A stretch of DNA of 64,000 nucleotides, taken from positions 1 through 64,000 of the forward strand of contig DASYSS010000027.1 of assembly GCA_036003045.1 (NCBI GenBank), written 5' to 3'. Numbering within the stretch: the stretch's first letter is position 1; the number at the start of each line of letters is the position of its first letter. The stretch comes from Gemmatimonadaceae bacterium (GTDB taxonomy: Bacteria > Gemmatimonadota > Gemmatimonadetes > Gemmatimonadales > Gemmatimonadaceae). Under the pieces are notes generated by a model. It was not told the DNA's origin. It saw only the letters and a program-made list of their open reading frames with translations, and did not search any database. This document shows, piece after piece, positions 32,650 through 61,712 of the stretch. The position numbers were made by a program, and so were the translations under genes.

Positions 32650-34674
32650 ATGGCTACCACCACTCGCGTAACAGACGCTCCGACCGGATCGGCCGCGCCC
32701 GCGAACGGCGCGGCGCCGGCGGCCGGCGCTTCCGGCGCCGAGACGACGTCCACCGGCGCGGGCTGGTCGATCGACGCCGCTCGCGCGCTTTACAGGATCG
32801 AAGGGTGGGGCGCCGGGTTTTTCGACGTGAACGACCAAGGCCACGTCATCGTGCGGCCGGACAAGGATCGTCCCGACCACACCGTGGACCTCTACGAGAT
32901 CACGAACGATCTCGAGGAGCAGGGGATCGCACTCCCCGTGTTGTTGCGCTTCTCGGACATCCTGCGTTCGCGCATCGAGGACCTGACGACGCGGTTCGAG
33001 CAGGCGCGCGAGGAATTCGGCTACACGGGCGGATACACGACCGTCTACCCGATCAAGGTCAACCAGCAGCGCCACGTCGTCGAAGAGATCGTCGAATTCG
33101 GCAAGGGTCGCCGCGTGGGACTCGAATGCGGGAGCAAGCCCGAGCTCCAGGCGATTCTCGGCCTCGCCGAAGACACCGAGCACCTGATCGTCTGCAACGG
33201 CTACAAGGACGAGGAGTTCATGCGCCTCGCCCTGATGGGCCAAAAGCTCGGGCACCAGGTGTTCATCGTCATCGAGCAGCTCAGCGAGATCGACGTGCTG
33301 CTCCAGGTCGCCGACGAGATGGGTGTGACGCCGACCGCCGGCGTCCGCATCAAGCTCGCGTCGCGCGGATTCGGCCGCTGGAAGGAGAGCGGCGGCGAGA
33401 AGTCGAAGTTCGGACTCAACTCCGCGCAGCTGATGCAGGCGATCGACAAGCTCCGCGCCGCCAACAGACTCGACATCATCAAGCTGATCCACTTCCATCT
33501 CGGATCGCAGATCACCGACATTCGCTTCATCAAGCTCGGGCTCACGGAACTGACGCGGTTCTACGTCGAACTCCGGAACCTTGGCCTCGACATCACGCAC
33601 GTGGACGTGGGCGGCGGCCTGGGCGTCGACTACGACGGCACCAACTCGACGGCCGACGCGAGCGTGAACTACTCGCTGCAAGAGTACGCGAACGACGTCG
33701 TCTACACGTTGGCGGAGGCGTGCAGGGAACACGAAGTGCCCATGCCGCACGTCATCAGCGAGTCGGGGCGCGCGCTCACCGCGCACCACGCATTGCTGCT
33801 CATCAAGGTCATCGACGTCGAGTCGCAGGCCGATCGACCCGTGCCGGAGCTGACCGAGGACGATCATCAGCTGCTGCACGAGATGCTCGCCGACCATCGC
33901 GACGCGTCGCGCAAGACCGTGTCCAAGCGACGCGTGCGCGAGATCTACCACGACATGACGTTCGACAAGGAGCGCGCGCAGGAGCTGTTCAACAGCGGGG
34001 TGTTCACGCTGCGCGAGCGCGCGTTGGCCGAGCAGATCTATTTCGCCACGGCGAACGTGCTCGCCAAGTCGGTCCTGCGCAAAGGTGCCGACTTCGCCGA
34101 CATCATCGCCGATCTCGATTCGACGCTCGTCGACCGGTACTTCTGCAACTTCTCGCTCTTCCAGTCGCTGCCCGACAGCTGGGCGATCGATCACGTCTTC
34201 CCGATCATGCCGATTCACCGGCTGAACGAAGAACCGAACCGCCGGGGAACGCTTCAGGACGTGACGTGCGACTCGGATGGCAAGATCGACCGGTTCGCCG
34301 GCGAGACCTCGGCCAACGCGAGCCTCGAGCTCCACGAGTTCCACGACGGCGAGCCGTACATGCTCGGCGTGTTCCTGACCGGCGCGTACCAGGAGATCCT
34401 GGGCGACCTGCACAATCTCTTCGGCGACACGAACGCGGTGCACATTCGCCTCGCGAACAACGGCGGATACGACGTCACGGATCTCGTGCACGGCGACACG
34501 GTGACGGAGGTGCTGAACTACGTCCAGTTCCGCGCGCCGGATCTCCTGCAGACGTTCAGGCGGAAGGTCGCCGCCGCGAAGCACATTTCGCGGCAGGAGG
34601 CGAATACGTTCATCGCCGACTACGTCGCCGGACTCGAAGGCTACACGTACCTCGAGGGCGAGGCCGCGCAGTAG
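32650..34674 (+). CDS. speA: Biosynthetic arginine decarboxylase
   Basis: The 674-residue PLP enzyme decarboxylates arginine to agmatine for polyamine synthesis. Motifs: PLP Lys in VYPIKVNQQRHVVEE, then GLECGSKPELQAIL, HFHLGSQITDIR, HVDVGGGLGVDYDG, and the C-terminal DSTLVDRYFCNFSLFQSLPD. The length is close to E. coli SpeA (658). An Ala/Thr-rich tail of about 35 residues precedes the conserved start WSIDAARALYRIEGWGAGFF. ATG 32650 was chosen; the frame is open farther upstream within pdxH. Convergent with the first lipoprotein gene, with 10 bases between stops. speB is not in the window. Confidence 0.95.
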   Translation: MATTTRVTDAPTGSAAPANGAAPAAGASGAETTSTGAGWSIDAARALYRIEGWGAGFFDVNDQGHVIVRPDKDRPDHTVDLYEITNDLEEQGIALPVLLRFSDILRSRIEDLTTRFEQAREEFGYTGGYTTVYPIKVNQQRHVVEEIVEFGKGRRVGLECGSKPELQAILGLAEDTEHLIVCNGYKDEEFMRLALMGQKLGHQVFIVIEQLSEIDVLLQVADEMGVTPTAGVRIKLASRGFGRWKESGGEKSKFGLNSAQLMQAIDKLRAANRLDIIKLIHFHLGSQITDIRFIKLGLTELTRFYVELRNLGLDITHVDVGGGLGVDYDGTNSTADASVNYSLQEYANDVVYTLAEACREHEVPMPHVISESGRALTAHHALLLIKVIDVESQADRPVPELTEDDHQLLHEMLADHRDASRKTVSKRRVREIYHDMTFDKERAQELFNSGVFTLRERALAEQIYFATANVLAKSVLRKGADFADIIADLDSTLVDRYFCNFSLFQSLPDSWAIDHVFPIMPIHRLNEEPNRRGTLQDVTCDSDGKIDRFAGETSANASLELHEFHDGEPYMLGVFLTGAYQEILGDLHNLFGDTNAVHIRLANNGGYDVTDLVHGDTVTEVLNYVQFRAPDLLQTFRRKVAAAKHISRQEANTFIADYVAGLEGYTYLEGEAAQ

Positions 34675-34684
34675 CCCGCAGTAG

Positions 34685-35110
34685 CTACCAGTTTCCGTTC
34701 TGGTACACGTGCGATGTACCGAGCGTCGGCGCGACGACGATCCTCACGCGGTCGCCTTTGTTGAGGCTCAGCGGGCCGAGTAGCGTCGATCCGGTATCGC
34801 CCACCGGCCGGACCTCGAATGTCGTGAGCGAATAACGGAAGAAATCGGTACCCAGCCCGACGGTTTGCGTCGTGCCGCCGGCCACCGTGGCGACCTCGCT
34901 CGTGTCCTCGTTCGCTTCGGCGTAGACCTTCACCGCCGTCGGGAAATCGTTCTGCACGCGAAGCACGACGGCCGCCTGCGGCGGCGTCTGCAGCGTATCG
35001 AACGCCAACTGTCCGGCTGCCGTTTGCGACCGAATGCCGCTCTCGTGCGCGCACGCGGCGAAAAACACCATGGCAGCCGCCACGGCGGCGCCGATCGATC
35101 GTCGAGTCAT
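34685..35110 (-). CDS. Putative lipoprotein, member 1 of a tandem paralogous family
   Basis: The 141-residue product starts with a lipoprotein signal (MTRRSIGAAVAAAMVFFAAC). It shares a pattern with the next two minus-strand genes: a T-A-A-G segment after the Cys, then VVLRVQNDFPTAVKVYAEAN, an FEVRPVG segment and LGPLSLNKGDRVRIVVAP. The order of beta-strand-like segments suggests a small beta-sandwich anchored in the membrane. Good ribosome site (AAGGAG, six bases before ATG 35110). It lies 27 bases after member 2 and is probably transcribed with it. The family is not one I recognise. Confidence 0.8.
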   Translation of the reverse strand: MTRRSIGAAVAAAMVFFAACAHESGIRSQTAAGQLAFDTLQTPPQAAVVLRVQNDFPTAVKVYAEANEDTSEVATVAGGTTQTVGLGTDFFRYSLTTFEVRPVGDTGSTLLGPLSLNKGDRVRIVVAPTLGTSHVYQNGNW

Positions 35111-35137
35111 TCGTTGCTCCTTCTCTCCTGCTTCCCG

Positions 35138-35542
35138 TTACGGCACCGTGGGACGGATTTCGACGCGGGCCGAGTCGAGGTTGGGCGTCACGATGAGGTT
35201 GGCGGTTTGGCCCCGACTGAGCCGGAATGGTCCGATCTGTTTCGAGGGGCCGGTCGCGGGCACGATCTCGAGCGAGAAGGATGTGCCGGGGAACGAGTTC
35301 GCGTCGAGTGCGACGGTTCCGAAACCGTCGCTCGCCAGGTTCACGAGCTCGTTGCGATTGTTCCCAACGATCGAAAAGACCTGGACGCGAGTCGGGTAAT
35401 TGTTCTGCACGCGGATCAGTACGGTCCGCGATGTCGTGGCGCCGACGTCGATGTCGCCGGCCGCCGTCCGCGTGTTCTGCTGCGTACAGGCGTGCACCGC
35501 CGAGAGCGCGATGCTCGCGACCAGTATTCGCATGGGGCTCAT
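35138..35542 (-). CDS. Putative lipoprotein, member 2 of a tandem paralogous family
   Basis: The 134-residue product has a signal peptide ending SAVHAC (a less usual lipobox), then TRTAAGDIDVG, VLIRVQNNYPTRVQVFSIV, GNNRNELVNLASDG, FSLEIVPATG and IGPFRLSRGQTANLIVTPN. These align with members 1 and 3. ATG 35542 is preferred over the upstream start at 35593 because GGAGG lies close before it and the signal peptide begins there; ATG 35533 is a second option. A -24/-12-like promoter element lies at 35606-35619. Confidence 0.8.
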   Translation of the reverse strand: MSPMRILVASIALSAVHACTQQNTRTAAGDIDVGATTSRTVLIRVQNNYPTRVQVFSIVGNNRNELVNLASDGFGTVALDANSFPGTSFSLEIVPATGPSKQIGPFRLSRGQTANLIVTPNLDSARVEIRPTVP

Positions 35543-35605
35543 GCCTCCCTCCTTCGAGCGGCCTGGTGAAGCGCACCGCTCGACTGCCACCATCGGGACA
35601 AAAGG

Positions 35606-35619
35606 GCAGGTTCAATGCC
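35606..35619 (-). promoter_or_regulatory. Possible sigma-54 type -24/-12 element before lipoprotein 2
   Basis: On the minus strand the sequence reads GGCATTGAACCTGC, a GG-N10-GC spacing with GGCA and TGC at the expected ends of a sigma-54 promoter. The start codon is about 64 bases downstream of the GC. The same arrangement and the following CCYTTT-GTCC are conserved before lipoprotein 3. No activator site was identified. Confidence 0.4.
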
Positions 35620-35717
35620 CGCGACGCGCATTCGACAGCGCCGCGGTCACTGTGCGGGCGGGCGCGGCCCGACGAGCCGCGGCCACTGTTGTGGCGCGAC
35701 TCGCGGACCTCTTTTCC

Positions 35718-35738
35718 CCGGCCTCAGCCGGTCTTTTT
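35718..35738 (+). terminator. Plus-strand intrinsic terminator in a lipoprotein spacer
   Basis: CCGGC (35718-35722) pairs with GCCGG (35727-35731) around a CTCA loop, followed by TCTTTTT. The T run is on the plus strand only, although both neighbouring genes are on the minus strand. It therefore does not serve them and may end an unannotated plus-strand transcript. Confidence 0.5.
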
Positions 35739-35740
35739 AC

Positions 35741-36160
35741 TTATGGTGCGGAGTGGTGAATGTCGACGTGGGACAGATTGATGTCCGGCGTCAGGACCAG
35801 CTCAGCCGTCTCGCCCTTGTTGAGCTTGAACGGCCCGAGCCGTTTGATCATGTGGCTGTCCTCGGGCCGGACCTCGAACGAAATCGATGGATAGGGAAAC
35901 AGGTTCGGATCGAGCACGATGGTGCGCACGCCCTTGGTCGCGACGCTCGCCACCTCGTTGGGCTGGCCGCCCATCACCGTGTAGACCCGAACTTTCGCAG
36001 GATAGTTGTTCTGCACGCGGAGGAGCACCGTCCGCGTCGCCGACAGCGAATCGACGGCGATGTCGCCGGCAGCTGATTGCGTTCGCGATTCGCTTTGCAT
36101 GCAGCCAGCGAGCATGCCCGCGCAAATCGCGCATCTGACGCCAATCGCAACACGTGTCAT
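35741..36160 (-). CDS. Putative lipoprotein, member 3 of a tandem paralogous family
   Basis: The 139-residue product has the best lipobox of the three (GMLAGC at about residue 21). It continues TQSAAGDIAVDS, VLLRVQNNYPAKVRVYTVMG, GQPNEVASVATKG, FEVRPEDSH and LGPFKLNKGETAELVLTPDI. Similarity to member 2 is clear along the whole length. ATG 36160 has AGGAGG nine bases upstream; the open frame to 36409 is not needed. A promoter element like that of member 2 lies at 36232-36245. It is divergent from a secreted amidohydrolase gene. Confidence 0.82.
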   Translation of the reverse strand: MTRVAIGVRCAICAGMLAGCMQSESRTQSAAGDIAVDSLSATRTVLLRVQNNYPAKVRVYTVMGGQPNEVASVATKGVRTIVLDPNLFPYPSISFEVRPEDSHMIKRLGPFKLNKGETAELVLTPDINLSHVDIHHSAP

Positions 36161-36231
36161 ATGTTTATGCCTCCTCGGAGAGCGAGCTGAAGCAAGCTGC
36201 TCGAAAACTCCCTCGTTGTTGGACCAAAGGG

Positions 36232-36245
36232 GCAGTTTCGGTGCC
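36232..36245 (-). promoter_or_regulatory. Possible sigma-54 type -24/-12 element before lipoprotein 3
   Basis: The minus strand reads GGCACCGAAACTGC, close to the -24/-12 consensus (TGGCAC-N5-TTGC) with exact GG-N10-GC spacing. It is followed by CCCTTTGGTCC, shared with the element before lipoprotein 2. The GC lies about 72 bases before the ATG at 36160. Confidence 0.45.
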
Positions 36246-36308
36246 GACACCTGGCGTCGGTTGCCGAAATCCGGGATTGCCCTGATCGGACTCAACCGGC
36301 AACCGTCG

Positions 36309-37547
36309 ATGAGAGCTCTGTCATTTGCCGCCGGAATCGCGCTCACGGCACCGTCGATCGCCGACGCGCAGAATTCGTCGTTCGCCCCGACCCGCTCGAC
36401 GGTCACCACGATTCACGCGGCGCGAATGATCGACGGCCGCGGGAAAGAGACCGAGAACGTGGTCGTCACGGTGAGCGAAGGCAAAATCACGAATGTGGCG
36501 CCGGCGACCGGCCGCGGCGTCCAGGCCACGTACGAGCTCGGCGACGCGACGCTGCTCCCGGGGCTCATCGACGCCCACGTCCACCCCGGGTGGTACATCA
36601 ACGGGCAGGGCGCGCTGCACAATGGCCGCGACGGAGATACCCCGACGCAGTCCGTGCTCGCGCGTGCCGGGAATCTCGACGCGACGCTGATGGCCGGATT
36701 CACGACGATCCAGAGCGTAGGCGGGGCCGAGGACCTCGAGCTGCGCGACGCGGTCGCGCGCTGGCAGATCCCCGGGCCGAGGATTCTCACGTCGATCACG
36801 CAGCTGAGCAACACCAGACCGTCCCCCGATTCGCTGCGCGCCCTCGTGCGGTCGCTCAAGGCGCGCGGCGCCGACGTCATCAAGCTGTTCGCGTCGGCGG
36901 GACTCGGCGCGGGCGGGGCACAGACGCTGTCCGATGAACAACTCGCCGCGATCTGCGGCGAAGCGAAGGCGCAGGGACTTCGCTCGGTCGTCCACGCGAT
37001 CAGTGCCGGCAGCGTGCGCGCCGCCACGCTCGCCGGCTGTACCGAGATCGAACACGGCACGTTCGCGACGCAGGCCGAGCTGACGCTCATGGCGGAGCAA
37101 GGAACGATCTTCGATCCCCAGGTTTGCCTGGTTTTTCAGAACTACATCGACCATCGCGACGTGTACGCGCGCTCCGGATACACGGACTCGACCTTCATGC
37201 TGCTCGGCCAGGCGATTCCCACGGCCACGGCGATGTTCAAGAAGGCCCTGGGCACCCCGGGACTGAAGATCATTTTCGGCACCGACGCGGTCGCGCTGGC
37301 TCACGGGCGGAACGCCGAGGAATTGCTCTGCCGAGTGAAGGCGGGTCAGAATCCGATGGACGCGATCACGTCCGCGACGTCGGCGACAGCGGCAGCGCTG
37401 GGGTTGGGCGCGACGATCGGAACGGTCGCACCGGGCTACGAGGCCGACCTCATCGCCGTGCGCGGCGATCCGTCGCGAGACATCGCCGCGATCAGGAAAG
37501 TGACGTTCGTGATGCGAGGCGGCGTGGTGTTCACCGGAACGCCGTGA
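36309..37547 (+). CDS. Secreted metal-dependent amidohydrolase
   Basis: The 412-residue protein begins with a signal peptide (MRALSFAAGIALTAPSIADAQ). Amidohydrolase barrel ligands are seen in LPGLIDAHVHPGWY (HxH), DVIKLFASAG (Lys), VVHAISAG, IEHGTF and GTDAVALAHGRN. The C-terminal beta-domain ends GYEADLIAVRGDPSRDI, typical of imidazolonepropionase-like hydrolases. It is a distant relative of the enzyme at 22906-24168 but lacks the Gly-Arg stretch. ATG 36309 is used; the frame is open upstream. It is convergent with the superoxide dismutase gene. Confidence 0.87.
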   Translation: MRALSFAAGIALTAPSIADAQNSSFAPTRSTVTTIHAARMIDGRGKETENVVVTVSEGKITNVAPATGRGVQATYELGDATLLPGLIDAHVHPGWYINGQGALHNGRDGDTPTQSVLARAGNLDATLMAGFTTIQSVGGAEDLELRDAVARWQIPGPRILTSITQLSNTRPSPDSLRALVRSLKARGADVIKLFASAGLGAGGAQTLSDEQLAAICGEAKAQGLRSVVHAISAGSVRAATLAGCTEIEHGTFATQAELTLMAEQGTIFDPQVCLVFQNYIDHRDVYARSGYTDSTFMLLGQAIPTATAMFKKALGTPGLKIIFGTDAVALAHGRNAEELLCRVKAGQNPMDAITSATSATAAALGLGATIGTVAPGYEADLIAVRGDPSRDIAAIRKVTFVMRGGVVFTGTP

Positions 37548-37656: not shown

Positions 37657-38255
<599 letters not shown>

Positions 38256-61596: not shown

Positions 61597-61712
61597 GCTC
61601 GTCGCGATTCCATCGCGGGCTGCGCGCGCACGGAGTCTCACGCGGGCAGCCAGTGTGCCATCTGATTCGGCGCGAGTCTATTTCGCGCGGGCTCGACCGC
61701 TCGTCATTCGTG

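Follow-up and report, generated by a model that had tools for sequence, protein, structure and literature searches.

The described proteins that come closest to the lipoproteins reported here resemble them in fold only. The NMR structure of Eubacterium rectale YP_002937094.1 (2mca) is a domain of the same size, and its record states no function. The luminal beta-sandwich of HGSNAT (8jkv, 8vly, 8vlg) belongs to a human membrane acetyltransferase. TssJ (3zhn), the outer-membrane lipoprotein of type VI secretion, is also a small, transthyretin-like sandwich. DUF4397 (PF14344) is likewise a beta-sandwich in exported proteins, and the putative cell adhesion protein 3ufi is presumably one of its members.

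Promoters of the sigma-54 type are defined by -24/-12 elements in which GG and GC doublets lie ten bases apart, with the consensus TGGCAC-N5-TTGC. Francke et al. (2011; PMC3162934) proposed that sigma-54 controls the bacterial exterior, including lipoproteins. That survey ties sigma-54 promoters to lipoprotein and envelope genes across phyla, as appears to be the case here, but it reports associations with biosynthesis and transport genes, and no mention of the present family was found there. A literature search found no paper on this lipoprotein family, nor on sigma-54 control of lipoproteins in Gemmatimonadota.

The window is a 64,000-nucleotide stretch of contig DASYSS010000027.1 from a Gemmatimonadaceae bacterium. 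It carries three tandem genes on the minus strand, read in the order P0003, P0004, P0001. The features of the locus are as follows.

32653..34674, plus strand: speA, arginine decarboxylase; syntenic neighbour conserved in the genus, context only
34685..35110, minus strand: lipoprotein gene 3 (P0001, 141 aa), the most diverged duplicate, without a promoter-like element of its own
35138..35542, minus strand: lipoprotein gene 2 (P0004, 134 aa), a diverged duplicate preceded by a promoter-like element
35605..35620, minus strand: -24/-12 element of gene 2, GGGCATTGAACCTGCC, with GG 77 nt upstream of the ATG
35741..36160, minus strand: lipoprotein gene 1 (P0003, 139 aa), the slow-evolving copy
35744..36034, minus strand: predicted beta-sandwich encoded by gene 1 (some 97 residues), corresponding to the conserved domain of the family (AlphaFold2 and family alignment)
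36231..36246, minus strand: -24/-12 element of gene 1, CGGCACCGAAACTGCC, with GG 85 nt upstream of the ATG
36309..37547, plus strand: exported amidohydrolase in divergent orientation to gene 1, a neighbour kept in three of four relatives; context only
37657..38250, minus strand: Fe/Mn superoxide dismutase (SOD); syntenic neighbour conserved in the genus, context only

The first-pass annotation described the three as tandem paralogous lipoproteins with retained ribosome sites, and this description is borne out. The proteins can be aligned over their whole length with 28 invariant columns, P0003 is 38–42% identical to P0004 and P0001, and a whole-genome search with P0003 recovers the other two at E=3e-28 and 2.5e-21; the similarity is far above chance level. 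Each has the features of a signal peptidase II substrate: a basic N-terminus, a hydrophobic stretch and a lipobox ending in Cys (LAGC, VHAC and FAAC, with Cys at residues 20, 19 and 20). The VHAC of P0004 is a weak lipobox; the Cys is invariant in a 22-row alignment (A2). Two of the motifs listed earlier, VQN-[DN]-[FY]-P and GP[LF]xL[SN][KR]G, are present in all three proteins. A third, T-A-A-G, is found in two, but P0003 reads S-A-A-G, leaving AAG in all; similarly, the F-x-[VI] segment is FEV in two, but P0004 has LEI. Strong Shine-Dalgarno sites precede all three ATGs (gaggaggcataaacat-ATG, gaaggagggaggc-ATG, gaaggagcaacga-ATG). P0003 and P0004 are separated by 198 nt, and P0004 and P0001 by 27 nt; genes 2 and 3 probably form a bicistron.

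The explanation we favour, and consider rather probable, is that the trio belongs to a phylum-wide family of lipoproteins that act as non-enzymatic envelope modules under sigma-54 control, and that it arose by tandem duplication and asymmetric divergence. Each protein would be exported, then cleaved and lipidated at the lipobox Cys, and a flexible linker of about 20 residues would tether it to the membrane, probably the outer membrane. The part presented would be one eight-strand beta-sandwich, which probably has a non-enzymatic binding or structural role in the envelope. Gene 1 and the gene 2–gene 3 pair would each be transcribed from their own -24/-12 promoter, and RpoN together with an activator ATPase would be required for expression. 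The present arrangement would have come about through two local rounds of tandem duplication in the lineage, after which the new copies diverged faster.

Gemmatimonadota are abundant in soil and poorly studied. Genome searches for the family covered this phylum, and an iterated profile restricted to the mature domain of about 95 residues (A4, 46 rows) matches 277 of 395 sampled genomes and 110 of 138 genera; the family is thus not confined to one strain. Within the same taxonomic family, a full-length profile matches 114 of 179 genomes. In the window's own genome six copies are clear and a seventh (C27:91996) is weaker, at E=1.6e-5. As the first-pass annotation supposed, the family has no known name: Pfam, NCBIfam and PHROGs models gave no match over cut-off, whether single proteins or alignments of the trio and its relatives were used, and the search for a characterised domain found none. 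This is an uncatalogued, phylum-wide lipoprotein family that is locally amplified in the window. About 70% of the sampled genomes encode the domain and the three family libraries consulted lack it, an obvious gap in annotation. Searches of plasmids with P0003 and of phages with one canonical domain found nothing, and a narrow pattern run against GTDB contigs returned a single Gemmatimonadaceae locus.

The wider-family consensus is V-x-N-x4-D-[VM]-x-V-Y...G-x3-R-[LI]-G-x-V-x-G...P-[IV]-G...S-x-x-[IL]-x-V-x-P-G, in which the near-invariant columns are one V, one N and one G. Since Val, Asn and Gly are the residues kept and no catalytic-type residue is invariant, a non-enzyme seems indicated. In another Gemmatimonadota genome of the same order but a different family, the domain is found C-terminal to an alpha-amylase (PF00128) in one open frame (L018:1-1782, G044); its position after a catalytic domain suggests the role of an accessory module. 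The predicted fold, the lack of catalytic residues, this enzyme fusion and the lipobox together point to a binding or structural module. Binding is the default reading, because no conserved partner gene accompanies the family outside the genus.

In the AlphaFold2 model of P0003 the stretch that follows the Cys is a poorly ordered linker; the beta-sandwich starts near residue 45 and takes up the rest of the chain, with pLDDT mostly above 90 in the domain and a whole-chain mean of 83. C44, a canonical member from the same genome, is predicted with pLDDT 95.8. For both, the nearest Foldseek matches are transthyretin-like and related sandwiches (2mca, the HGSNAT luminal domain, 3ufi and TssJ); with identities of about 10%, these neighbours reflect resemblance of fold only. 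The top match of C44 is 2mca (E=2.3e-4, TM 0.61), but identity is just 12%. HGSNAT gives the best superposition (TM up to 0.78 by C44 length), but again at about 10% identity and with no sign of a common function. By sequence, neither single proteins nor alignments gave a convincing match in the PDB; weak matches to antibody domains and nitrite reductase are attributable to chance or to the fold level.

Tests for membership in TssJ and in DUF4397 were both negative. TssJ is a fold match at E=0.014 and TM 0.53, but the family has no PDB sequence match, and no type VI secretion genes were seen near family copies in about 30 loci read by eye. By fold, 3ufi ranks with the best matches (E=8e-5), but there is no Pfam match to DUF4397 even at E=1, and hhalign gives a probability of 0.7% against a small six-row alignment. 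DUF4397 matches in the same genome are in genes other than the family members. Two adjacent frames at C102:9039-11310 each have two such matches and are possibly a second family of tandem exported sandwiches.

The order speA–lipoprotein–amidohydrolase–SOD is syntenic within the genus. Four relatives have one copy (G002, G004, G005) or two (G003) at the same site, and it is P0003 that corresponds by synteny to the lone gene of other species. One syntenic site with 1, 1, 1, 2 and 3 copies thus offers a natural series for asymmetric divergence after duplication. At the G003 site (L080, G003:C275) the amidohydrolase is missing, unlike in the other species.

The lipoproteins have changed faster than their surroundings. 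Neighbouring proteins (speA, SOD, amidohydrolase and an ABC ATPase) are 72–88% identical to their counterparts, compared with 44–51% for P0003 and its syntenic orthologues. In a phylogenetic tree the locus genes form one clade (support 99/91), with branch lengths of 0.18 for P0003, 0.88 for P0004 and 1.44 for P0001; the G003 pair has the same asymmetry, 0.28 versus 1.72. In the best tree the three window genes form one group, weakly supported (54/89). The AU test disfavours descent of P0001, P0004 and the second G003 copy from one common duplication (p=0.009); pairwise versions of this hypothesis are borderline (p=0.04–0.05). Because each multi-copy genome has one short-branch copy and a shared duplication is disfavoured, separate tandem duplications with asymmetric divergence are suggested. 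As judged from sequence comparisons, the fast change looks like asymmetric divergence following duplication.

The long branches of P0004 and P0001 could also mean that constraint on genes 2 and 3 has been lifted and that both are decaying towards loss. This seems improbable to us, as open frames, lipobox, ribosome sites and core motifs are kept in all, and gene 2 retains its own promoter-like element.

The first-pass annotation further suggested a surface-exposed, possibly diversifying system, and the faster evolution relative to neighbours lends diversification weak support; no phase variation, recombination or hypervariable segment was found. A surface antigen or adhesin whose tandem copies vary under selection by phages, predators or neighbours would fit the rapid divergence, the recurrence of tandem pairs (G003 in the genus; G035, G024 and G211 in other genera) and the likeness of the fold to the putative adhesion protein 3ufi. 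However, recombination between copies is unlikely at 38–42% identity, repeats are not seen, the divergence is too great for a positive-selection test, and one copy remains slow. Only fast divergence speaks positively for such a system, and we regard it as unlikely, somewhat less so than decay.

Small divergent lipoproteins in arrays are a known layout of immunity genes, and the trio could be imagined as immunity or exclusion lipoproteins maintained against secreted toxins. But no toxin or secretion gene is seen nearby, the surrounding housekeeping genes are conserved across the genus, and members elsewhere are mostly single genes with no fixed partner, which makes this reading very improbable. 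About 20 loci surveyed outside the genus revealed no recurrent partner gene, with single copies lying in unrelated contexts; a dedicated operon or system is therefore rejected.

The regions upstream of the syntenic genes can barely be aligned, with the exception of GGCA[CT]-N6-TGC. This element is located 57–85 nt before the ATG in seven of seven locus genes once the second gene of each bicistron is set aside, and it has the GG and GC doublets at exactly the sigma-54 spacing. A scan for sigma-70 promoters found none. The count was extended to 200 nt upstream of each of 60 family genes with a recognisable lipobox. GGCAY-N6-TGC is found in 21 of these, at 48–98 nt upstream in 20 and at -132 in one; the independent weight is below 21/60, because the first seven genes, the discovery set, are counted within it and orthologues share history. 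The opposite strand gave 1, reversed sequence 0 and shuffles 0.54 on average, and alternative spacings from N2 to N11 (excluding N6) gave 0–2 genes each. The strict motif is absent from 39 of the 60, and by our own count it is present in 16 of 22 genes inside the genus and 5 of 38 outside.

The genome encodes RpoN (PF04552, E=2.1e-63, at G000:C18:15784), and a sigma-54 promoter is likely to lie ahead of many family members, to judge from motif and spacing. The element does deviate from the textbook form: position -14 is usually C, not T, giving C-TGC-C versus T-TGC-A/T, and GGCA...TGCC is also a short dyad. An alternative is that a repressor or activator binds the dyad (GGCA-N7-TGCC), which would make the element an operator rather than a sigma-54 promoter. 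The palindromic C follows TGC in 12 of the 21 sites, but the palindrome is broken in the other 9, the GG and GC doublets keep to one interval of 10 nt, some variants (TTGGCATCGCATCTGC and GTGGCATCACTGATGCA, for example) match the sigma-54 consensus, and RpoN is encoded. An operator is accordingly the less expected reading, though of the alternatives weighed here we give it the most credence. The sigma-54 interpretation offers a testable handle, as it predicts RpoN dependence of the family.

Genome-wide, the string itself is not enriched: YGGCAYN5CTGCC occurs 20 times, versus 44 for the reversed control, and the signal is therefore carried only by position and spacing. The refined motif GGCAYCGANNCTGC has four matches in the genome, two of them at family genes. 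Copies of the motif are found about 57–86 nt before lipoprotein or exported genes, namely P0003, C44, C48, L153, L155, L156 and L158. L153, L155 and L156 (C30:12439, C33:55817 and C33:157598) are unrelated lipoprotein genes with the same element 57–77 nt upstream, which hints at a wider lipoprotein regulon. The element thus groups family genes with other lipoproteins of the genome, and suggests activator control of envelope composition. It is conceivable, though we would put it no higher than a tentative proposal, that Gemmatimonadota control a set of envelope lipoproteins mainly through sigma-54, the beta-sandwich family foremost, and that a signal sensed by the activator remodels the surface as a block.

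Two further occurrences may be mentioned. Elsewhere in the window, at 61645-61660 on the minus strand, a sigma-54-type element (TGGCACACTGGCTGCC) has its GG 63–84 nt, depending on the ATG chosen, before an exported protein that begins MKKMKMANAAAAFSVLMVFLSATARAQ. In the same genome (L144, C59:106218), GGCACCGATGCTGC lies 80 nt before a small Ser/Gly-rich protein that begins MADRDNDRSNDPNNPSKSGSSGG.
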